Source: a bacterium (GTDB lineage Bacteria > Sysuimicrobiota > Sysuimicrobiia > Sysuimicrobiales > Segetimicrobiaceae). Taken from it: a stretch of DNA of 64,000 bases. Below, piece by piece: positions 19,948 to 31,296 of this stretch (its first letter is position 1; the number at the start of each line of letters is the position of its first letter). The stretch is from NCBI GenBank assembly GCA_035691305.1, contig DASSJF010000059.1:1-64000 (forward strand), written 5' to 3'. The position numbers and the translations under genes were made by a program. The notes under the pieces were generated by a model. It ran no database searches. It saw only the letters and a list, made by a program, of their open reading frames with translations, and had not been told where the DNA came from.

Positions 19948-21774
19948 GTGCGCGGGATGATGCGTGCGGTGGCGGCGATCGTCGCGGTCGGCCTGGGTCT
20001 GGCCACGGCCGGACTTCCCTCCGCGGGCGCGGATCCCCAAACCATCCTGCCGCTGTCTGCCGTTCACGCCGGAATGCGGGGGTACGGTCTCACCGTCGTT
20101 CACGGCACGACGATTCAGCGCTTCGACATCACCGTCCTCGGGGTGCTGCAGGGCGAAAGCAGCTCTGACACCGACTTGATCCTCTTCCGCGCAAGCGGCC
20201 CGCTGATCCGGCAGGCCGGCGGAACGGCGTCCGGCATGAGCGGCAGCCCCATTTTCCTCAATGGCCGGCTCGCCGGCGCTCTCTCGTACGGCTACCATTT
20301 CCCCGGTCCCGACGCAGACCTGAGCCTGGCCACTCCGATCGAACAGATGCTGAAGATGCTGGCGCCGCCCCCCGCGGCCACCACGCGGCGGGATGCGCCG
20401 GCGCCGTCCTTCCGCCGGGCCGTCTATCGCAGCCGGATGCCGATCGCGACGTCCGCGGGTCCGCTGCGGCGCCTGCTTGTCGTAGGATCGACGGCGGAGG
20501 CCGCGGCGTACAACGCGCACCGCGTCCAGGACACGGCCGCGGTCGCTCCGGCGATGGTGCCGATGACGGCCGCCGGCGTGACGCCGGCCGGAATGCGCGT
20601 ACTCGAGCAGGCCTTCAAGCGGTTCAACCTCGTGCCGCGCCAGGGGTACGCCGGCGGCCGGAACTTCACGGCGCCGCCGCTCGAACCTGGCGCGTCGCTC
20701 GGCGTGGAGTTGGTCCGGGGCGATGTCGAGGTCGGCGCCATCGGCACCGCCACGTACCGCCGCGGCAACACCGTACTGGGGTTCGGCCATCCGCTCTTGA
20801 ACTCCGGCACCGCCGCGATGTTCATGACGAGCGCCTGGATCGACACGATCGTCCGCTCCCTGGACTTTCCATTTAAAGAGGGCAGCTTCGGCCCGGCCGC
20901 CGGTACCCTGACGCAGGACCGAACCACCGGGATCGCGGGGGTGATCGGGCAGTTCCCGCGTGCGTTCGCGATCAGGGTCAACACCAAGGACCTCGATACC
21001 GGGGTGGCCCACTCCTACGGCGCGCAGATCATCCGGCGCCAGGACCTGGCCGAGAGCCTCGTGCCGACGGCCGTGCTGAGTCTCATCCAGCGCGGGCTCG
21101 ACCGGGTCGCGGGCGGCTCGGCCGCCGTGCGGATCACGCTACGGGCGCGGCACCTCAAGCAGGCCGTCGTGCGGGAGGATCTCGCGTACGACGTCGGCGA
21201 CATCGCGACCGCCTCGGCGCTCGACGTCCCCGCGGCGACGCAGCTCCTGTTTACGAACTTCTTCGACGAGCTCGAACCGGTGGACATGACCGTCGATGTC
21301 GCCGTCACGAGCAAGACCAACATGGCGCTGCTCGTCGGCGCCCGCCCCAATGTCCGCACGGTGCACGCCGGCGACCGGATTCAGGTCGCCGTGCATGTCC
21401 GTCCGTTCGCCGGCGGGGAGCCCGAGAGCAAGACGGTCACCTTCACCGTGCCGAAGGACTTTCCGGAGGGCCCGGCGTTTCTGCTCGTCGGGACCATCGG
21501 CGCGCTCAACGATTCGTCGGCGCCGGCCGACAAGTTCCAGGTGCTGGTGGCGGCCGAGAGTACGCCGAGCGGCGCGGAATCGCTCGCGTCGGCGATCGAC
21601 CAGTTCGAGAACGACGGGAAAAACACGGATCTGATCATCCAGCTGGTACCCGAGTCGGTCCTCACGGCCGTCGGCGCGAACGCCAACCCGAGTTTCGAGT
21701 CGCCGGCCGGGACCACGCTCGAGACCGACTGGGTGGTGCTCGGCAAGTACCAGATTCCCATGACGGTCAAATGA
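19948..21774 (+). CDS. SpoIVB/S55-like secreted protein, first copy
   Basis: 608 residues, GTG 19948 with GGAGGGGGA upstream. A signal sequence (about residues 5-28) is followed by an S55-like core. Seen in order: VHAGMRGYGLTVVHG (about 41-55), the serine motif ASGMSGSPIFLNGRLAGALS (Ser near residue 96), LATPIEQMLKML, then a His motif VLGFGHPLLNSG (near residue 275) and TLTQDRTTGIAGVIG. In SpoIVB the catalytic His precedes the Ser; here it follows. The C-terminal third looks like beta-rich interaction domains. It is probably an extracytoplasmic protease or a catalytically altered relative; the substrate is unknown. A paralogue follows directly. Confidence 0.75.
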   Translation: MRGMMRAVAAIVAVGLGLATAGLPSAGADPQTILPLSAVHAGMRGYGLTVVHGTTIQRFDITVLGVLQGESSSDTDLILFRASGPLIRQAGGTASGMSGSPIFLNGRLAGALSYGYHFPGPDADLSLATPIEQMLKMLAPPPAATTRRDAPAPSFRRAVYRSRMPIATSAGPLRRLLVVGSTAEAAAYNAHRVQDTAAVAPAMVPMTAAGVTPAGMRVLEQAFKRFNLVPRQGYAGGRNFTAPPLEPGASLGVELVRGDVEVGAIGTATYRRGNTVLGFGHPLLNSGTAAMFMTSAWIDTIVRSLDFPFKEGSFGPAAGTLTQDRTTGIAGVIGQFPRAFAIRVNTKDLDTGVAHSYGAQIIRRQDLAESLVPTAVLSLIQRGLDRVAGGSAAVRITLRARHLKQAVVREDLAYDVGDIATASALDVPAATQLLFTNFFDELEPVDMTVDVAVTSKTNMALLVGARPNVRTVHAGDRIQVAVHVRPFAGGEPESKTVTFTVPKDFPEGPAFLLVGTIGALNDSSAPADKFQVLVAAESTPSGAESLASAIDQFENDGKNTDLIIQLVPESVLTAVGANANPSFESPAGTTLETDWVVLGKYQIPMTVK

Positions 21775-21784
21775 GGGACGCAGG

Positions 21785-23539
21785 GTGACGACGCGGCTCG
21801 CGGCGGCTGTTCTGGCGGCGATCTCGCTCCTCGGGCTGGGCATCTTCTCGCCGGCGGGGGCGGCGGGGCCGGCGATCATGGCGGCGCGCGCCATCGCCGT
21901 CGGGATGACCGGCGTCGGCAAGACGGTCATCATCGGCACCGCGGTCGTGCCGTTCGAGGTCCGCGTGCTCGGGATCCTCCACAACGCCGGTCCGGCGGGC
22001 GACCTCGTGCTGTTTCGCGCCTCGGGGCCCGCGATCAAGAGCGTCGGCGGCATCGCCGCGGGGATGAGCGGCAGTCCGATCTATCTCCGGGGACGGCTCG
22101 CGGGCGCGCTCTCGTACACCTTCGAGGCGTCGGATCCGACGGTCGGGCTGTTCACGCCGATCGAGGACATGCTGCGCGTCCTGCCCACGCCGGCGCCGGC
22201 GGGCGCGGCCGCGCCCCGGGTATTCGCGGTGGCGCCGACGCTGATCGGCGGGCGCGTGATCCGCCGCGTGGCCGTTTCGGCGTGGGGCGCTCGGGCGGCC
22301 GCGGCGCCCGATACGCTCGTCGCGACACCCGCGGAGACGCCGCTGTTCGTCTCGGGCCTCGGCGGCGGAGAGCTTCAGACGCTTGCGAACGTGCTGGCCC
22401 CGATGGGACTGGCGCCCGTGGCGGGCGGATCAGACGCCAACCTTCCCGCGTCGCTGCCGCTCGAACCCGGCAGCGCGATCGGCGTCGCTCTGCTCAGGGG
22501 CGATATCGCGGCCTACGCCATCGGCACGATGACCTACCGGGACGGTAACCGCATGCTGGCCTTCGGCCATCCGTTTACGGGGATTGGGCCGTCCAGTTAT
22601 CTGTTGATGAACGCGACGATCTTTCAGGTGGTGCAGGGCCGGCAGCAGAACGTCAAGATCGGCGCCGTCGGCTCGCCCGTCGGCATCGTGTCCCAGGACC
22701 GTCCGGCCGGCATCGGCGGGACGATCGGCGTGATGCCGCGGATGTTTGGCGTTCACGTGCACGTGAGCGACGCGGATGGCGGCGGCGCGCACGACTACAA
22801 TTTTCAGGTCATCCCGAGCACGGAGATCGCGCCGGTGGTGGTGCCGGTGGGGTCGCAGGGCGCCATCGCGCGCGCGCTCAACCGCAACGGCCAAGGGACG
22901 GCGACCGTGCGTATGGTGCTCTACGGCCGGGGACTGCCGAAGCCGGTCGTCCGTGAGAACATGTTCTACAGTCCCGGCGCCATCGCGTCGCGCGCGCTCG
23001 CCGAGCTGCCGCAGGCAATGAACCTGCTGTTCGACAATGAGTTCAAGAACGTCGGTCCGACGGGCATCGACCTCGACGTCCGTGTGACGTCCGCGCAGCG
23101 CACCGCCTCGATCGTGGGGGCGGTGGGGCCGCACGCCCCGGTGGCGCCCGGCGACACGGTCCACGTCCGCGTGACGGTGCGGCCGTACCGCGCCGAGCCG
23201 GAGACCCAGGACGTGGCCTTGACCATTCCGGCGAACGCGGTGGCCGGTCCCGCGACCCTCGTTGTCCGCGGTGTCGGCGGTGGACTTCCGGGCGGAGGCC
23301 CCGCTGGCTCCGCGCAGGGCGTCCAGGGGCCGGGGCCCGCGACGCTCGACGACGCCATCAAGGCATTTGAGACCGGCGACAAGAACACCGACGTCGTGGT
23401 CGAACTGACGGGCGGCCTGCCGCCGCGGACCGACGCCGCGTCCGGGCCGCCGGCGAAGCCATCCGCGCAGTGGACGACGCCGTGGGTCGTGCGCGGCCGG
23501 ATCCAGTTGCCGATCGTCATCAAGGGAGGCACACACTGA
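21785..23539 (+). CDS. SpoIVB/S55-like secreted protein, second copy
   Basis: 584 residues, GTG 21785, starting 10 nt after its paralogue. It has the same order of motifs: signal sequence, IAVGMTGVGKTVIIG, AAGMSGSPIYLRGRLAGALS, FTPIEDMLRVL, then MLAFGHPFTGIGPSS and GIVSQDRPAGIGGTIGVMP. The GMTGVGKT string resembles a P-loop but aligns with a non-ATP-binding segment of the first copy. A Gly/Pro-rich linker near residues 495-520 precedes the C-terminal strand region. The pair probably arose by duplication and may act together in the periplasm or at the outer membrane, next to tamB. Confidence 0.75.
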   Translation: MTTRLAAAVLAAISLLGLGIFSPAGAAGPAIMAARAIAVGMTGVGKTVIIGTAVVPFEVRVLGILHNAGPAGDLVLFRASGPAIKSVGGIAAGMSGSPIYLRGRLAGALSYTFEASDPTVGLFTPIEDMLRVLPTPAPAGAAAPRVFAVAPTLIGGRVIRRVAVSAWGARAAAAPDTLVATPAETPLFVSGLGGGELQTLANVLAPMGLAPVAGGSDANLPASLPLEPGSAIGVALLRGDIAAYAIGTMTYRDGNRMLAFGHPFTGIGPSSYLLMNATIFQVVQGRQQNVKIGAVGSPVGIVSQDRPAGIGGTIGVMPRMFGVHVHVSDADGGGAHDYNFQVIPSTEIAPVVVPVGSQGAIARALNRNGQGTATVRMVLYGRGLPKPVVRENMFYSPGAIASRALAELPQAMNLLFDNEFKNVGPTGIDLDVRVTSAQRTASIVGAVGPHAPVAPGDTVHVRVTVRPYRAEPETQDVALTIPANAVAGPATLVVRGVGGGLPGGGPAGSAQGVQGPGPATLDDAIKAFETGDKNTDVVVELTGGLPPRTDAASGPPAKPSAQWTTPWVVRGRIQLPIVIKGGTH

Positions 23540-23588
23540 TCGCGTGGGGCCACACGAGCGCGTGCCCGCGGGGGTGCCGCGGGCGGGC

Positions 23589-26500
23589 ATGAACGCGCAG
23601 CCGCGCGCCCGTTTCCGCCCCCTCCGGCGCGGCGCCGCGATCTTCGGTGTGATCCTCGTCCTGGCCGCCGCGGGCTGGGCGGGGGCGGTCTCGAGCGGTT
23701 GGATGGCGCACGCGATCCGACAGGCCGTCGTCTCGCGCCTCGGCCACTCGCTCGGCCGTGCCGTGGCGCTCGGCGGGGTCGGCGGCAACCTGCTCGAGGG
23801 GATCGAGCTGCGCGACCTGGTAATCGCGGAGCGCGGCGGTTTCAGCCACGGCGCCGCCTTCTCGGTCGACCGCGTGCACATCACCGTGTCGCTCTGGGAC
23901 TTCGTGCGCCGTCCGCGGGACGTGCTCGCGAGTATCAGCCGCGCCGAACTCACGACTCCCCACATCGTGCTCGTGCGAGACGCGCGCGGGCACTGGAACC
24001 TCCAGGATCTGCTCGCACAGCCGCAGAGTCCGCTGGGTCCGGCGTTCCACGGTCTGGTCGTGGTGCACGGCGGCGTCATCGCCTACGCGGACTCCTACGG
24101 CGTGGAATCGCCGCCGTTCGTCACACGGTTCGAACTCATCGACGGTACTCTCACCACCGAACCCGGCGGCCGGCTCGTCATCGCGCTCTCGGGGCGGAGC
24201 ACCGCCGGCGAGACGGCCGCGGTTCACGGGCGCTACGCCGCGTCCGACGGGACCTACGACTTCGACATCACCGCGGACCGCGGATCGGTACGGCACTGGG
24301 GCGGCTACCTCGTCCACCTCGGACAGCTGCGCTGGGTCGGCGGACGGTTCTCGGGCCGCGTTCACCTGCTCGCCACGTCCGTGAAGTCGGGCCTGGACGC
24401 GACTTATACCGCGACGATCCGGCTCAACGACGCCCAGGCGCTGTACCGGCCCGCCGCGATGCCGCTCCGCCACGTGAACGGCGAAATGCAGGTGACGTCG
24501 GGGCACGTCTCCGCGGACGGGATAACGCTGATCGCCGGCGACTCACCGGTCTGGGTGCGGGGCGACGTCTCCTACGCAGGCGACCCGTGGTTGAATCTGG
24601 TCGTCCGGTCGCAGCGGCTCGACCTGGCACGGGCGCGGGCCCTGTTCTTCCCCGGTACCGGTTTAACGCTCGTCGGGCGGGCGACGGGTGACATGTGGAT
24701 CTCCGGGCCGGTGAGCGCGCCGTCGTTTGCGGGCACCGTGGCGGCGGCGGACGGCCGCTTCAACGGCCAGGACTTTGCGGGGCTCACGGCGCGGTTCGCC
24801 TACGGGGACGGAGTCCTCTCGCTGCGCGACCTCTCGGCCGGAGTCGGCGACGGGCGGGTCGCCGGCGACGCCGTCATCGATTTGGCGACGGAGGAACCCT
24901 CCTTTACATTCGCCGCGACGGCGGAGAACATCGACGCCGCGGCTCTGCCGCGGGCCGGGCTTCCGGTCACCGGCGGCCTCGTGGCCCGCGGGTCCGGCAC
25001 GATCGCAGGCGCCGGACAGGGATCGCGGATGCGGGTGCTGGGCGACATGTCGCTCGAGCGCGGCGCGATGCGCGGGCAGGCGTTCGACAGCCTGACCGCA
25101 TTCTTCTGGAACGACGGCGGCGCCCTGCAGTTCGACGACCTCCGGATGCAGTCCGGGTCCGCCACGGTCTACGCGTCGGGCGCCGTGGCGCCGAGCGGGG
25201 CGCTCTCGCTGACCGCGGAAGGACACGATATTCCCCTCGGCGCGATCGCGGGCCGGACGGGGCTCGCCCCGTCGGAGCTCACTGGCACCGGGCGGTTCAG
25301 CGGGCGCGTCGGCGGCACGCTCAATTCGCCCGCGCTGTCCGGCGAGGTCGCGGCATGGGACGGGCGCCTCGGACCGATGCCCTACACGTTCGCCGCCGGC
25401 AGGTTCAACGTCACCGGCGCGTTCCTGTCGACCCCTCACGCGGACCTCTACCAGGACGGTGCGTACTTCGGGGTGAGCGGAGCGCTGGCGCTCCGGCCGC
25501 TCGCGGCGCGGGACGTCACGATCGACACCCAAGGGGTGCCCGCTCAGTCGTTCCTGCGCGACGTAATCCGGATCGACTCCGTTGCGGGAACGCTCTCCGG
25601 ACACGTCGTGGTCAACGGCCCGGTTGACCGGCCGTCCGTCGCCGGGCACGTCGCCCTGCTCAACGGCGGCGTGCTGGGGCAGCCGGTAGACCAGGCCGAC
25701 GCCGATCTCGGGGGCGGCCCCGGCGGCTTGATCCAGGTGACCCGGCTCGACGCGCGCGTCAAGGGCTCGCAGGTCCACGCCTCGGGGGCCGTGGATCCGC
25801 GCGGCCCGATCGATCTCAACCTCCAGGCCGATCGCGTCCGCCTCGCGGACGTTTCGCTCCTGACGCGCTTCGGCGTGGTCCCGTACGGCAGCGTGACCGT
25901 GGACGGGCATCTCACCGGCACGCTGTCCGACCCGGAGTTCAAGGGCCGGCTCGTGTCGCCGGACCTCTGGATGCAGGGGCAGGCGTTCTCCGCCTCCGGG
26001 ATGATCGATTATCGGAACGGCCAGGTGCAGCTCGCCCCGCTCGACGTGGTCCAGGGCGACGCCAGCTACAGCCTCACCGGTAGCGTCTCCTGGGCGGGCG
26101 AGCCCACAGCGGACCTGAACCTCCACGTCACCCACGGCCAGATCGGGACCCTCGTCGACGCGGCGAGCTTGAAGCTGCCGGCGCGATTCGAGGGTTTGAT
26201 CGACGGCGACGTGTCCCTTGCCGGGCCGCTACGCGACCCGTCGGCGCAGCTGACGCTCAGTCTGAGCAATGCACGGGTCGGGGGCGTGCCGGCGGGTACC
26301 GGGACGGCGGATCTCGTGCTGAGCCACGGCGCGATCGACATCCGGCAGTTCGAGCTCCACCCCGGCCGCGGCGAGATCGCGGCGCGGGGACAGGTCGCGA
26401 TCAACGGGACCAGCAACGTCGAAGTGTCGGCGCACGATCTCGACCCGGCGATTTTCGTGCCGATCTTCCACCTTTCGCAGCCGCTCGTCGGCGGTCTTGA

Positions 26501-28007
26501 TTTCACGATGCAGTGGACCGGGCCGGCGCGGAACCCTACGGCGGGTCTCTCTCTCGAGGCCACCGACGCCGGCGTGCCGGGCGCGACCGTCGACCGGGTT
26601 GCGGCGCTCGCGTATTACAAGGACGGCACGATCACCATCCAGGACGGCATCGTGGCCAAGGGCGAACATCGCCTGGTCGTGCAGGGCACGCTGCCGGTGG
26701 CCGCGGACCGGTTCGAGCTGGATCCGCGGGGGCCGATTCAGCTCACGCTGCACCTCGAGGATACCGATCTCAGCCTCCTCAGCCTGCTGACGCCGGCGAT
26801 TCAGGACGCGTCCGGGACCGTGGCGGGGCAGGTCGCGGTCGGCGGCACGGTCGCCCAGCCGACGATGACCGGGTCGATTCAGACGACCGGCGGCCGCCTG
26901 CGGTGGGCGCCGATGCGCACCCCGCTCGAGAACGTCGCGGCCGACATCACGTTTTCGCAGAACCTGGTCGAGGTACACGACGTCTCCGCGGACGTCGGAG
27001 GCGGTCATCTCGCCATTCACGGGACCGCGGCGGTCGGCAACTTCCACCTGCAGACGCTCGATCTGAGTCTGACGGCGAACCGGCTGAACGTCGACGTGCC
27101 GAGGGTATACACCGGCCGCCTGGACGCGACCCTCGCGCTCCGGGGACCGGCCGCCGATCCGACTCTCTCCGGAGGCGTCACCGTCTCCGGCGGCCGCGTG
27201 ACCTACGCGGGCGGCGCCCCCGGCGGCGCCGCCGCCAAGACGCGCGTCCCGCCGGTGCGGCTCGACGTCAACGTGGCGACCGGTGCGGACGTGTACTACG
27301 GCGAAGGCCCGGTGCAGCTCGCGCTGGCCGGCAGCGTCCACGCGGGCGGCACGCTCGCCGATCCGAAGCTGTCCGGCGAGGTACGATCGGACGGGGGCAG
27401 CGTTGATCTCTTCGGCACGGTGTTTACCGTGGTGGAAGGCCGCGCCACTTTCTCCGAAGGCCGCGGCCTCACGCCGCTCGTCACGGCGCGGGCCCAAGGC
27501 CAGGTCGGTGACACCCGCGTTTTCGTCGACGTAGCGGGGCCGCTCTCCAACCCCTCGGTCGTCTGGAGCTCGGAACCGCCGATGAGCCAGTCGGACATCC
27601 TGGCGATCGTCTTCGGCGCGACCGGCGAAGCGGGGACGCCCACGGGGCTGGCGGGACGGGAGCTCGGCCGTCTGCTGATCGGCTCGGTGACGTCCGCGAT
27701 TCAGCGCGCCCTGCACCTCGACGAGCTGTCGATCTCCTACGATACCCAGAATCCCGTCACGCTGCGGATCGGGAAGTTTCTCTCAGCCAAGTTCTACCTG
27801 ACGCTGACCGAGGTGTTCGCGCAGGCGAACACCCCCGGCACGGCCCCGGCGGTGCTGTCGGGGACGTTCGCGCGGCCGACGCTCGCGGGGCAGTCCTACA
27901 CCGTGCTCGGCCTCGAATATCTCGTGAGCCCGAGCGTGTCGTTCTCCTACGACGTGGACACGGTGGGGGACAACGGTTTCTTCCTCCTGACGCGCTTCCC
28001 GTTCTAG
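23589..28007 (+). CDS. tamB: TamB-like translocation and assembly module protein
   Basis: About 1472 residues from ATG 23589; GTG 23544 is an alternative start. It has an N-terminal membrane anchor (AAIFGVILVLAAAGWAGAV), then a very long run of repeated beta-strand units of the AsmA/TamB type (recurrent G-x-V-x-G-D patterns), and the DUF490 C-terminus: TPLVTARAQGQVGDTRVFVD, PPMSQSDILAIVFG, and a final beta-signal-like end FFLLTRFPF. TamB spans the periplasm and moves phospholipids and helps outer-membrane protein insertion. It fits the Omp85 gene (bamA) 1.3 kb downstream. It is the first gene of the outer-membrane cluster. Confidence 0.92.
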   Translation: MNAQPRARFRPLRRGAAIFGVILVLAAAGWAGAVSSGWMAHAIRQAVVSRLGHSLGRAVALGGVGGNLLEGIELRDLVIAERGGFSHGAAFSVDRVHITVSLWDFVRRPRDVLASISRAELTTPHIVLVRDARGHWNLQDLLAQPQSPLGPAFHGLVVVHGGVIAYADSYGVESPPFVTRFELIDGTLTTEPGGRLVIALSGRSTAGETAAVHGRYAASDGTYDFDITADRGSVRHWGGYLVHLGQLRWVGGRFSGRVHLLATSVKSGLDATYTATIRLNDAQALYRPAAMPLRHVNGEMQVTSGHVSADGITLIAGDSPVWVRGDVSYAGDPWLNLVVRSQRLDLARARALFFPGTGLTLVGRATGDMWISGPVSAPSFAGTVAAADGRFNGQDFAGLTARFAYGDGVLSLRDLSAGVGDGRVAGDAVIDLATEEPSFTFAATAENIDAAALPRAGLPVTGGLVARGSGTIAGAGQGSRMRVLGDMSLERGAMRGQAFDSLTAFFWNDGGALQFDDLRMQSGSATVYASGAVAPSGALSLTAEGHDIPLGAIAGRTGLAPSELTGTGRFSGRVGGTLNSPALSGEVAAWDGRLGPMPYTFAAGRFNVTGAFLSTPHADLYQDGAYFGVSGALALRPLAARDVTIDTQGVPAQSFLRDVIRIDSVAGTLSGHVVVNGPVDRPSVAGHVALLNGGVLGQPVDQADADLGGGPGGLIQVTRLDARVKGSQVHASGAVDPRGPIDLNLQADRVRLADVSLLTRFGVVPYGSVTVDGHLTGTLSDPEFKGRLVSPDLWMQGQAFSASGMIDYRNGQVQLAPLDVVQGDASYSLTGSVSWAGEPTADLNLHVTHGQIGTLVDAASLKLPARFEGLIDGDVSLAGPLRDPSAQLTLSLSNARVGGVPAGTGTADLVLSHGAIDIRQFELHPGRGEIAARGQVAINGTSNVEVSAHDLDPAIFVPIFHLSQPLVGGLDFTMQWTGPARNPTAGLSLEATDAGVPGATVDRVAALAYYKDGTITIQDGIVAKGEHRLVVQGTLPVAADRFELDPRGPIQLTLHLEDTDLSLLSLLTPAIQDASGTVAGQVAVGGTVAQPTMTGSIQTTGGRLRWAPMRTPLENVAADITFSQNLVEVHDVSADVGGGHLAIHGTAAVGNFHLQTLDLSLTANRLNVDVPRVYTGRLDATLALRGPAADPTLSGGVTVSGGRVTYAGGAPGGAAAKTRVPPVRLDVNVATGADVYYGEGPVQLALAGSVHAGGTLADPKLSGEVRSDGGSVDLFGTVFTVVEGRATFSEGRGLTPLVTARAQGQVGDTRVFVDVAGPLSNPSVVWSSEPPMSQSDILAIVFGATGEAGTPTGLAGRELGRLLIGSVTSAIQRALHLDELSISYDTQNPVTLRIGKFLSAKFYLTLTEVFAQANTPGTAPAVLSGTFARPTLAGQSYTVLGLEYLVSPSVSFSYDVDTVGDNGFFLLTRFPF

Positions 28008-28059
28008 TGAGAGAAACGCGGCCGCGCCGTCCGGACACTAGAGGGATGGAGATCCATCT

Positions 28060-28689
28060 GTGCTGAACGAGTACCTCCGTGAACTGCACCGGGTGGCGCT
28101 GCTGCGGCCGGCCGAGGAGCGGCGTCTCTGGCAGGCCTACAGGCGGCGGGGAAGCCGGCAGAGCCGCGCGCGCCTGATCGAGGCGTATCAGCCGCTCGTT
28201 TTCAAGGTGGCGATGGCGCTGCGGCTCCGCGAGACCGTGGTGATGGACATGATCCAGGAAGGCACCGTCGGTCTGATCCAGGCCGTCGAGCGATTCGACC
28301 CGGACCGGGGCGTGCGGTTCAGCACGTTCGCCACCTACCGGATTCGGGGACGCATCCTCAACGCGCTGCGGCGGGAGCGCGGCCGAGGGCCCGACGTCGA
28401 GGATGCCGCGGAGTCGCTCGCGCGCGTGCCGGACGTGGCGGCCGCGGACGCGCTCGCGTCGGTCGAGGACGCCGTGCTGGTGCGGCAGATCGTGTCCGCG
28501 ATCGACGGGCTGCCCGCCCGGGAACGCCGCATCCTCGTCGGCGCATTTCTCTCGGCGGAGGAGCCGGGGCGCATCGCCGACGAACTGAGAATCAGCTTGT
28601 CGCACTTCTACCGCCTCCAACAGCAGGCGCTGCGGAGGATCCGCGAGATGCTCGCGCCGCCGCTCCGGCCCCGGCCGGCAGAGGAGTAG
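28060..28689 (+). CDS. Sigma-70 family factor (regions 2 and 4) inside the outer-membrane gene cluster
   Basis: 209 residues, GTG 28060 behind GAGGGATGGAG. Region 2 reads LIEAYQPLVFKVAMALRLRE, VVMDMIQEGTVGLIQAVERF, DPDRGVRFSTFATYRIRGRI, which is closer to primary/sporulation-type sigma factors than to ECF factors. Region 4 carries IADELRISLSHFYRLQQQAL as helix-turn-helix. Region 3 is shortened or absent. It sits between tamB and a small membrane protein before bamA. It may control envelope genes, but its targets cannot be read here. The downstream neighbour is a candidate regulator. Confidence 0.85.
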   Translation: MLNEYLRELHRVALLRPAEERRLWQAYRRRGSRQSRARLIEAYQPLVFKVAMALRLRETVVMDMIQEGTVGLIQAVERFDPDRGVRFSTFATYRIRGRILNALRRERGRGPDVEDAAESLARVPDVAAADALASVEDAVLVRQIVSAIDGLPARERRILVGAFLSAEEPGRIADELRISLSHFYRLQQQALRRIREMLAPPLRPRPAEE

Positions 28690-28696
28690 GGTCGCC

Positions 28697-29230
28697 GTGG
28701 GCGGTGGAGCCGACCCGCTGCTGCGGCACATCCGGCACGCCGAAGAATGGCTCGGCCGGGCCCGCCTCGACTGGCGCCGCGGGAACGCGCCGGCGGCGAT
28801 GCTGCGGCTGATGCTCGCCGAAGCGGAAATCCGGCACGCCCGGGAGACCGGGATGGCGGCGGTTCCCGGCGCCGACCCGACGGGTACCACCGCGTCGACG
28901 CCGGCCGCGCGCGGGGGGAGCAGTTGGCCGAAGGTGGCGGCCGCGATCGCGGCCGCCGCGGTGCTGGCCGGCGGGCTCGGCTACGCGTCGATGCGGCCCG
29001 AGCAGCAGGGCGCCCTCGTCGAACGCGCGGGATCGGCGGTGGGGCTGCGCGGCGAATCTTCGCGGACGATCGTGCGCCTGGATTCAGGACAATTCTTGCT
29101 GCCTGACCGCGAACAAGCCGCCGGGGTCGGTCCGAACACCCCCGAACCCTCGACGGGTGACGCCCAGCCCTTCCAATTCGCGGTGCCGGCGGTGCCGGTG
29201 GATCTCAAAACGCCTTCGCCGACGTTCTAG
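28697..29230 (+). CDS. Single-pass membrane protein following the sigma factor, candidate anti-sigma or envelope sensor
   Basis: 177 residues, GTG 28697, 7 nt after the sigma gene. The N-terminal 55 residues are helical and charged (LLRHIRHAEEWLGRARLDWR). A linker leads to one membrane helix at about residues 78-97 (VAAAIAAAAVLAGGLGYASM). An extracytoplasmic tail of about 80 residues ends Pro/Thr-rich. No family domain was recognised and no zinc motif is present. The topology (cytoplasmic helices, one helix through the membrane, outside tail) and the position after a sigma gene suggest an anti-sigma role; this is inference. Confidence 0.7.
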   Translation: MGGGADPLLRHIRHAEEWLGRARLDWRRGNAPAAMLRLMLAEAEIRHARETGMAAVPGADPTGTTASTPAARGGSSWPKVAAAIAAAAVLAGGLGYASMRPEQQGALVERAGSAVGLRGESSRTIVRLDSGQFLLPDREQAAGVGPNTPEPSTGDAQPFQFAVPAVPVDLKTPSPTF

Positions 29231-29295: not shown

Positions 29296-31296
29296 TTGAC
29301 CGCACCCAAGGACGAACGCAAACAGGGACGCGTGCGCGTGCTCGTGACCGTACTCTGCCTGGCGCTCCTGCCGGGCGCCGCATTCACGCTGGCCCCGGCG
29401 CTGGCAGGGCGGCCGGTGGTGCTGCCACCCGTGCTGCGGGCACAGACGCCGGCGACGGCACCGGTGACGCCGACGGCGCCGGTGACGCCGACGGTGCCGG
29501 TGACGCCGACGGCGCCGGTGACGCCGACCGCCCCGCTCACGCCCACGGCGCCCGTTTCGCCGACCGGGCCGATCGTGCCGCCGCCCGGCCCGGCCGTTCC
29601 GTCACCATTCGTGCCGCAGCCGGGCGTGCCGCCCCAGGTCGTACCGCCCCAGCGCGTCGTCGACGTCGTGGTGCAGGGCAATGTACACGTGCCCACCGCT
29701 CAGGTGCTGGCCGTGGTCTCGACGAAGCCCAACGACCCGCTGAACGAGGAGAAGGTCCGAAACGACGTGCAGTCGATCCTCGGCACCGGGCTGTTCGCAG
29801 ACGCGGTCGTGCGGCTTGAGCCCGCGCCGGAGGGCGTGAAGATTGTCTTCGTCGTCGTCGAGAACCCCGTCGTCACCTCGGTTGTCATCAAGGGAAACAC
29901 GGTCGAGCCGACAGACGCCATCGTGAAGGCGATCGGCGTGCAGACCGGGCAGGTGCTGAATACGGTGTCGGTCCGCGACGGCGCGCGCGCCGTCGAGAAG
30001 CTCTATCAGGACGCCGGCTACATCCTGGCACGCGTTTCCGATGTGGCGATCAGCGATCAGGGTGTACTGACCATCACCCTGGCGGAAGGCCGCATCGAGG
30101 CCGTCAAGATCGAGGGCCTGCACAAGACCAAGGACTACGTGGTGCGGCGGGAACTGTCGTTCAAGCCCGGCGACGTGTTCAACGCCAACAGCGTGAACGC
30201 GAGCCTCAAGCGGTTGTTCCAGCTGCAGTATTTCTCCGACGTGAAGGCGCAGCCGGGGCCGGGGACGACCCCCGACACGGTCGACGTGACGATCATTGTG
30301 ACCGAACAGAAGACCGCGTCCGTCGGCTTCGGCGTCGGCTACCAGACCGTGTTCGGTCTCCAGGGCATCGTGTCGTACCGCGACAGCGACTTCGGCGGGA
30401 ACGGGCAGGGGGTGAACGCGCAGTACAACAGCAGCGCCTTGAACGGGGGCGGCTACACGCTGACGTTCCACGAGCCGTACTTCGAGGGCACGCGCACGGC
30501 GCTGGACCTGCAGATGTTCAACCTGGTCTCGATTCCGACCGACTATTCGTTCGGGCTCAACAACACCTTTAACTACAACATGTATCAGACCGGCGGCAGC
30601 GTGGCGTTCACGCAGCCGCTGTCCCCGGAGCGGCCTCCGGTGTACTCGCTCAACTACGGTCTGAAATACCAGAGCACAACGTTCGGCCAGCCGTCCGTCG
30701 GAACGAGCCCGCCGGCGAACTTCGTCTTTACGCCGGGCACGGTGACCGCGCTCATCCTGGGCGCCATCAAGGACACCCGGGACGACCCGCTCGACCCTAC
30801 CGCCGGAGAGCACATCACGCTCTCCGTCGAGGCCGCGTTCAACGCGCTCGGAGGCGACTTCAACTTCCAGAAGTACGAGCTGGACTACGCGCGCTTCTTT
30901 CCGGTGGCGCCCGGCACGGTCATCGTCGGGCACGCTCACTTCGGGACGGCAAGCGGGCCTCTGCCGATTCAGGAGCAGTACTACCTCGGCGGGCAGAACA
31001 CGCTGCGCGGTTACGCCGCGGGACGGTTCCGCGGCGATCAGATGGCGCTCCTCACAGGCGAATACCACTTCCCGCTCAGTAATCTCCCGCTGCTGCACAA
31101 CTTCACCGGGCTGACCGGCATCGTGTTCGCCGACGCCGGGGATACCGAGCCGTTCGGCAGCGGTCTGAGCTTCAACCCGAAGTACGACTACGGCGCCGGG
31201 ATCGCGATCAAGACGGGGTTCGGGCCGTTCCGGCTCGACTACGGATTCAGCCAGGAAGGCAACCAGTTGTGGATCTCCACGGGCGTGCTATTCTGA
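29296..31296 (+). CDS. bamA: BamA/Omp85 outer-membrane assembly factor
   Basis: 666 residues, TTG 29296 with GGAGGT 5 nt upstream. After a signal sequence there is a Pro/Thr repeat region of VTPTAP units (residues about 55-92). Three POTRA domains follow: VVDVVVQGNVHVPTAQVLAV, VVIKGNTVEPTDAIVKAIGV, then IEAVKIEGLHKTKDYVVRRE. The C-terminal bacterial surface antigen barrel contains YYLGGQNTLRGYAAGRFRGD (the loop-6 RGF-like motif). Three POTRAs instead of five is the cyanobacterial/Terrabacterial layout. It inserts beta-barrel proteins into the outer membrane, probably including the porin at 46.6 kb. Confidence 0.95.
   Translation: MTAPKDERKQGRVRVLVTVLCLALLPGAAFTLAPALAGRPVVLPPVLRAQTPATAPVTPTAPVTPTVPVTPTAPVTPTAPLTPTAPVSPTGPIVPPPGPAVPSPFVPQPGVPPQVVPPQRVVDVVVQGNVHVPTAQVLAVVSTKPNDPLNEEKVRNDVQSILGTGLFADAVVRLEPAPEGVKIVFVVVENPVVTSVVIKGNTVEPTDAIVKAIGVQTGQVLNTVSVRDGARAVEKLYQDAGYILARVSDVAISDQGVLTITLAEGRIEAVKIEGLHKTKDYVVRRELSFKPGDVFNANSVNASLKRLFQLQYFSDVKAQPGPGTTPDTVDVTIIVTEQKTASVGFGVGYQTVFGLQGIVSYRDSDFGGNGQGVNAQYNSSALNGGGYTLTFHEPYFEGTRTALDLQMFNLVSIPTDYSFGLNNTFNYNMYQTGGSVAFTQPLSPERPPVYSLNYGLKYQSTTFGQPSVGTSPPANFVFTPGTVTALILGAIKDTRDDPLDPTAGEHITLSVEAAFNALGGDFNFQKYELDYARFFPVAPGTVIVGHAHFGTASGPLPIQEQYYLGGQNTLRGYAAGRFRGDQMALLTGEYHFPLSNLPLLHNFTGLTGIVFADAGDTEPFGSGLSFNPKYDYGAGIAIKTGFGPFRLDYGFSQEGNQLWISTGVLF
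29461..29568 (+). repeat. 18-bp tandem repeat encoding VTPTAP units in BamA
   Basis: Six consecutive 18-bp units. The unit ccggtgacgccgacggcg is exact at 29461-29478 and 29497-29514, and others differ by one to several bases. It is in frame, so copy number changes would alter only the length of the Pro/Thr linker before POTRA 1. Confidence 0.85.

Follow-up and report, generated by a model that had tools for sequence, protein, structure and literature searches.

A sigma factor and its membrane-protein neighbour between tamB and bamA: a candidate controller of BamA supply in diderm bacteria

Why should a sigma factor and a membrane protein of no recognised family lie inside a gene cluster devoted to assembly of the outer membrane? 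The question is raised by the stretch of DNA analysed here (the window, 64,000 nucleotides), in which one strand carries, in this order, two SpoIVB-like (S55) proteins, tamB, the sigma gene, the gene for the membrane protein (hereafter MEM), bamA, three OmpH-like genes and lpxD-lpxC. A first-pass annotation had described a sigma factor and a membrane protein nested between tamB and bamA, and both open reading frames are indeed present, on the same strand, 7 nt apart and bounded by tamB and bamA. The features on which the argument draws are the following.

19948-21774 and 21785-23539, same strand as tamB: two tandem SpoIVB-like (S55) proteins, 5' of tamB
23544-28007, + strand: tamB (PF04357 TamB, 7.3e-44)
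28011-28042, + strand: candidate promoter of sigma-MEM-bamA (GAGA at 28011-28014, an 18-nt gap, GGACACTAGA at 28033-28042)
28060-28689, + strand: sigma-70-type factor of 209 aa, with regions 2 and 4 and without region 3
28697-29230, + strand: MEM, single-pass inner-membrane protein of 177 aa, N-in (from the ORF and family topology)
28715-28858, + strand: MEM residues 7-54, cytosolic helical hairpin, candidate sigma-binding part (AlphaFold and conservation)
28925-28987, + strand: MEM transmembrane helix (family hydrophobicity and positive-inside rule; low-confidence AlphaFold helix 77-96)
29296-31296, + strand: bamA (POTRA 6e-36, Omp85 7e-34), end of the conserved block

The sigma gene starts with GTG, and a ribosome site, GGAG, is found at about 28048-28051. 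The two S55 proteins carry the serine motif GMSGSP near the N-terminus and the GHP motif later, the reverse of the motif order of SpoIVB. In BamA, a Pro/Thr-rich repeat (PVTPTAPVTPT) encoded at 29440-29560 precedes the POTRA domains; long low-complexity BamA N-termini are present also in Negativicutes that have no sigma gene.

Judged by its sequence, the product of the first gene of the pair is a member of the sigma-70 family, with both Sigma70_r2 (7.5e-20; 70.9 bits against a cut-off of 24) and Sigma70_r4 (1.9e-6; 27.7 bits against 24.1) above the curated Pfam cut-offs. Region 1.2 is weak (0.013 in the window sigma and 5.6e-4 in L298), and the Pfam domain search gave no match to region 3 in the window sigma. 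The nearest sub-threshold models are those of RpoS, RpoH and SigBFG, while TIGR02937 spans both ECF and non-ECF types. The earlier description of the protein as having regions 2 and 4 and being 'not ECF-like' thus stands in part: the closest sub-threshold models favour it, but a layout of regions 2 and 4 without region 3 is ECF-sized.

Of 43 genomes of the window's phylum, 35 gave a match at E ≤ 1e-20 when searched with the window sigma; where the contig is long enough, tamB, MEM and bamA surround it, bar a few loci in which MEM is too divergent for the search. Negativicutes were first found through a locus labelled Sporomusaceae (L010), whose gene order is identical to that of the window. The sigma factor is present in 162 of the 201 Negativicutes genomes sampled. 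Across 150 loci that were read, TamB precedes the sigma gene every time, and MEM and BamA follow it in 149 and 148. A sample of 200 genomes from the phylum of Petroclostridium yielded 13 with the sigma factor, the other 187 lacking it even at 1e-18; four of the 13 are Negativicutes already counted, and eight of the remaining nine carry the full block. The ninth, G392, led to a third Bacillota class, where the sigma factor is matched at 1e-18 in 16 of 51 genomes. One of these 16 matches, L311, was rejected as an ordinary sigma of another kind. MEM follows the sigma gene at 13 loci of this class, with TamB recognised in 12 and BamA in 12. G392 and G440 (L284/L296 and L297) have tamB-sigma with neither MEM nor bamA nearby; at L284 the next gene on the strand encodes an HD-domain protein.

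The same gene order in three deep lineages is far beyond chance. A tree of 56 sigmas separates the tamB-linked sigmas of all three lineages from 24 others by one branch (SH-aLRT 95), and the window's phylum (100) and Negativicutes (98) are each held together in it; this grouping in one clade fits vertical descent. Conservation of the pair in related genomes, which the first-pass annotation had proposed as a check, is therefore borne out across the window's phylum, Negativicutes and the third Bacillota class. Its view that the two genes are 'inserted' in the cluster has to be given up: with the order standing in three lineages, the pair is an old resident, and several lineages have since dropped it.

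These losses are joint. BamA was found in 36 of the 39 Negativicutes genomes without a sigma match. Among 30 such loci read, 25 have TamB followed by BamA with neither sigma nor MEM between them, and three more lack both sigma and MEM, TamB being unrecognised. Two apparent cases, L223 and L238, were discarded since their contigs end with part of the pair still visible. A genome-wide MEM profile search of the 39 genomes was convincing only in G072, the genome of L238. Weaker candidates were set aside: the match in G110 looks like chance in unrelated sequence, that in G185 covers only a low-complexity tail, and a supposed MEM remnant fused to BamA in L232 is a low-complexity match only. No MEM is kept at any readable sigma-less tamB-bamA junction. 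Likewise in the window's phylum, sigma and MEM are both absent from three genomes (G035, G036 and G042), where tamB runs directly into bamA; a fourth candidate, G033, was not counted because its contig ends inside the sigma gene. On a BamA tree, about 10 changes between sigma presence and absence are seen, an approximate number obtained with FastTree from a short region. Linkage is broken and both genes are kept in G169, where thrS follows tamB-sigma and MEM-bamA lies on another contig. Covariation between sigma and MEM (5.05) above that between sigma and BamA (4.32, sd 0.25) is only suggestive, as the excess is modest and comes partly from one clade.

The first-pass annotation had called the second protein an unrecognised single-pass membrane protein, and this description holds. 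MEM falls into no Pfam family, scores below the cut-off of every NCBIfam family and matches PDB entries at E = 0.045 at best; by hydrophobicity, a single membrane segment is seen in 160 of the 189 family members. Among members having a segment, Lys plus Arg are more numerous before than after it in 96%, which by the positive-inside rule places the N-terminus in the cytosol. AlphaFold predicts a hairpin of helices 7-27 and 31-54 (pLDDT about 93) and a disordered tail after the membrane helix, in models that were built from three sequences and are weak overall (mean pLDDT 56 and 51). Conservation across all three lineages is confined to the cytosolic hairpin and the membrane helix, and is lost between lineages at the periplasmic end. 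A conserved periplasmic C-terminal motif, MQKLVRAAGKSLRG / LIDLVLAAERSLR, closes MEM in Negativicutes and several families of the window's phylum; MEM of the window's own family is without it, and several members there end in Phe.

MEM thus has the general layout of membrane anti-sigma proteins: a gene beside that of the sigma factor, one membrane helix, N-in orientation and a cytosolic helical domain. As the earlier reading of its topology had supposed, a single-pass, N-in protein has the topology of a membrane anti-sigma factor, and topology, gene order and co-loss together make this the likeliest role, as a prediction. Against it, MEM bears no resemblance to known anti-sigma domains. No RseA match was obtained in the 25 MEM members tested, and the window MEM has no cysteine, so that it lacks the zinc anti-sigma motif (HxxxCxxC); no anti-sigma family scored above its cut-off (19 against 100 bits). 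Both observations agree with the first-pass view of a system distinct from sigma-E.

MEM might instead be an inner-membrane accessory of the BAM/TAM machinery, the sigma factor driving the operon under control of its own level or otherwise. MEM adjoins bamA and moved with it in G169, and the conserved periplasmic C-terminal motif of many members would suit such a part. We nevertheless regard this reading as unlikely, because sigma-less genomes lose MEM while keeping tamB and bamA, as would be expected of a protein whose role is linked to the sigma factor, and because the most widely conserved part of MEM is cytosolic rather than periplasmic.

If MEM restrains the sigma factor, which promoter does the sigma factor serve? 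All 12 genomes of the window's family carry the site GAGA-N18-GGAYAYTNTA, 26-33 nt before the sigma start. The motif was derived from the 11 sigma-bearing genomes of the family, window included, with the gap taken as one variable base plus 17. Across their alignment GAGA is 100% identical, the spacer 39% and the -10-like part 83%, and the spacing is exact. The twelfth genome, G033, which stood outside the derivation, has a perfect site just after tamB, with the sigma frame beginning at the contig end. Within the window the motif matches only once at ≤ 2 mismatches, where 0.77 matches are expected by chance, so the weight rests on conservation of the site. A scan of the 12 genomes at ≤ 1 mismatch found the site in each, and the remaining matches about equal those of a reversed-pattern control; a broad regulon based on these extra matches was therefore rejected. 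One other perfect match (G002:C10) lies ahead of a short, uncharacterised ORF.

Similar elements precede MEM in the other lineages. In Negativicutes, where a median of 167 nt separates the sigma stop codon from the beginning of the conserved hairpin region, an element resembling the site of the window's family, GGATTATATA, precedes MEM-bamA. Of 64 distinct loci, 36 have GAYTRTA at 18-75 nt upstream of MEM, where shuffled sequences give 1.6 (sd 1.3), and this word is accompanied by A-rich bases at about the GAGA register. By eye, words like GGATA(A/C/T)TAT were seen in the sigma-MEM gap of the third class and of some other families of the window's phylum. Some Negativicutes have a SigA-like TTGAAT/TATAAT promoter before MEM instead, and in Sporomusaceae a TATAAT is also found close to the MEM start. 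Each genome searched holds a single copy of the full Sporomusaceae promoter block, chance-level matches aside; a broad regulon proposed from these was likewise dismissed, as the extra matches equal the reversed-pattern control. Just upstream of the promoter-like element, the Sporomusaceae gap contains a conserved imperfect palindrome, CCAGAATCTGG, which could be an operator.

These strict motif scans point to a regulon consisting of the sigma factor's own operon with bamA rather than a broad envelope set, although they would miss degenerate promoters and are compatible with a wider regulon. Alternatively, the housekeeping sigma or some other factor might read the site, with the pair acting on unrelated targets. 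The scans establish that the site is nearly unique and leave its reader aside, and the TATAAT near MEM in Sporomusaceae and the SigA-like promoter in some lineages would fit such a reader. We consider this improbable: the site stands at the head of the sigma operon in the window's family and of MEM-bamA elsewhere, in each case together with this sigma clade, and the GAGA element differs from the -35 of SigA.

Based on these findings, we propose that the sigma factor and MEM constitute an autoregulated sigma factor with a membrane-bound regulator, which together set the supply of BamA; we put the probability of this reading at about 0.55. Gene order, conservation, co-loss, the topology of MEM and the promoter-like site, conserved and nearly unique in the genome, are observed directly, whereas three parts of the model are inferred: reading of the site by this sigma factor, the inhibitory action of MEM, and the nature of the signal to which MEM responds. 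Diderm Bacillota and the window's phylum would carry, in their outer-membrane assembly cluster, an ancient control module whose two genes are inherited together. A single conserved, non-canonical promoter is the most likely target of the sigma factor: in the window's family it belongs to the sigma factor's own operon, sigma-MEM-bamA, and in Negativicutes to MEM-bamA. MEM most likely tethers the sigma factor at the inner membrane via the cytosolic helical hairpin and frees it, through cleavage or a change in shape, once the periplasmic part signals faulty assembly of the outer membrane. The outcome would be a feedback loop that sets the supply of BamA along with that of MEM, the sigma factor's own brake. 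That MEM is instead a positive partner, a membrane anchor or co-activator which the sigma factor needs, seems very doubtful, for although co-loss and neighbourhood suit it equally with a brake, in known cases a membrane protein whose gene adjoins that of an alternative sigma usually acts as an inhibitor.

For the proposed cleavage of MEM, the S55 proteins upstream of tamB are a possible protease. An S55 protein beside tamB is, however, also present at the sigma-less locus L293, and the cluster of Veillonella parvula likewise holds one by tamB (Poppleton 2017, PMC5491611), both of which argue against such a role.

Taken further, the data allow a more tentative reading, to which we give less than even odds: that a sigma factor already present in an ancestor common to several diderm lineages acts at essentially a single promoter, that of its own operon with bamA, and forms, with a new family of membrane regulators, a dedicated controller of BamA supply, unlike the global envelope-stress sigmas. 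If ancestral, the pair bears on regulation of the outer membrane at a time before its loss from some lineages. Fixed in place between tamB and bamA, the pair also offers an experimental handle: its promoter and partner are defined, and the lineages that have lost both genes serve as natural knock-outs.

How does this locus compare with known systems? The outer-membrane cluster of diderm Firmicutes, with TamB, BamA, Skp/OmpH, LPS genes and a SpoIVB-like protein nearby (Antunes 2016, PMC5007114; Poppleton 2017, PMC5491611), is the same cluster as in the window. The word 'sigma' is absent from the main text of Antunes 2016, which described the cluster (PMC5007114). In V. parvula, TamB (Vpar_0526) and BamA (Vpar_0527) are numbered consecutively (PMC5491611), as in the sigma-less genomes here. 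No description of the sigma-MEM pair was found in the full text of the open papers searched, where the control of outer-membrane assembly in diderm Bacillota and their neighbours also appears undescribed.

SigI-RsgI and other membrane anti-sigma pairs of Bacillota share with the present pair a sigma gene followed by that of a single-pass, N-in membrane protein. They differ in that MEM members match neither the RsgI nor the zinc anti-sigma families, that the present pair is missing from 187 of the 200 genomes sampled from the phylum of Petroclostridium, and that it is linked to outer-membrane genes. RpoE-RseA is similar in combining a sigma factor with a neighbouring single-pass membrane protein that has a cytosolic N-terminal part, in its link to outer-membrane assembly, and in an autoregulated operon, which here is suggested by the promoter-like site. 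In contrast to RpoE-RseA, the membrane protein here has no RseA match and no RseB-like gene beside it, and the strict motif gives no broad regulon; in region 2 the sigma factor resembles RpoS/RpoH-type models more than a dedicated ECF model, region 1.2 is weakly present, and the pair itself lies within tamB-bamA.
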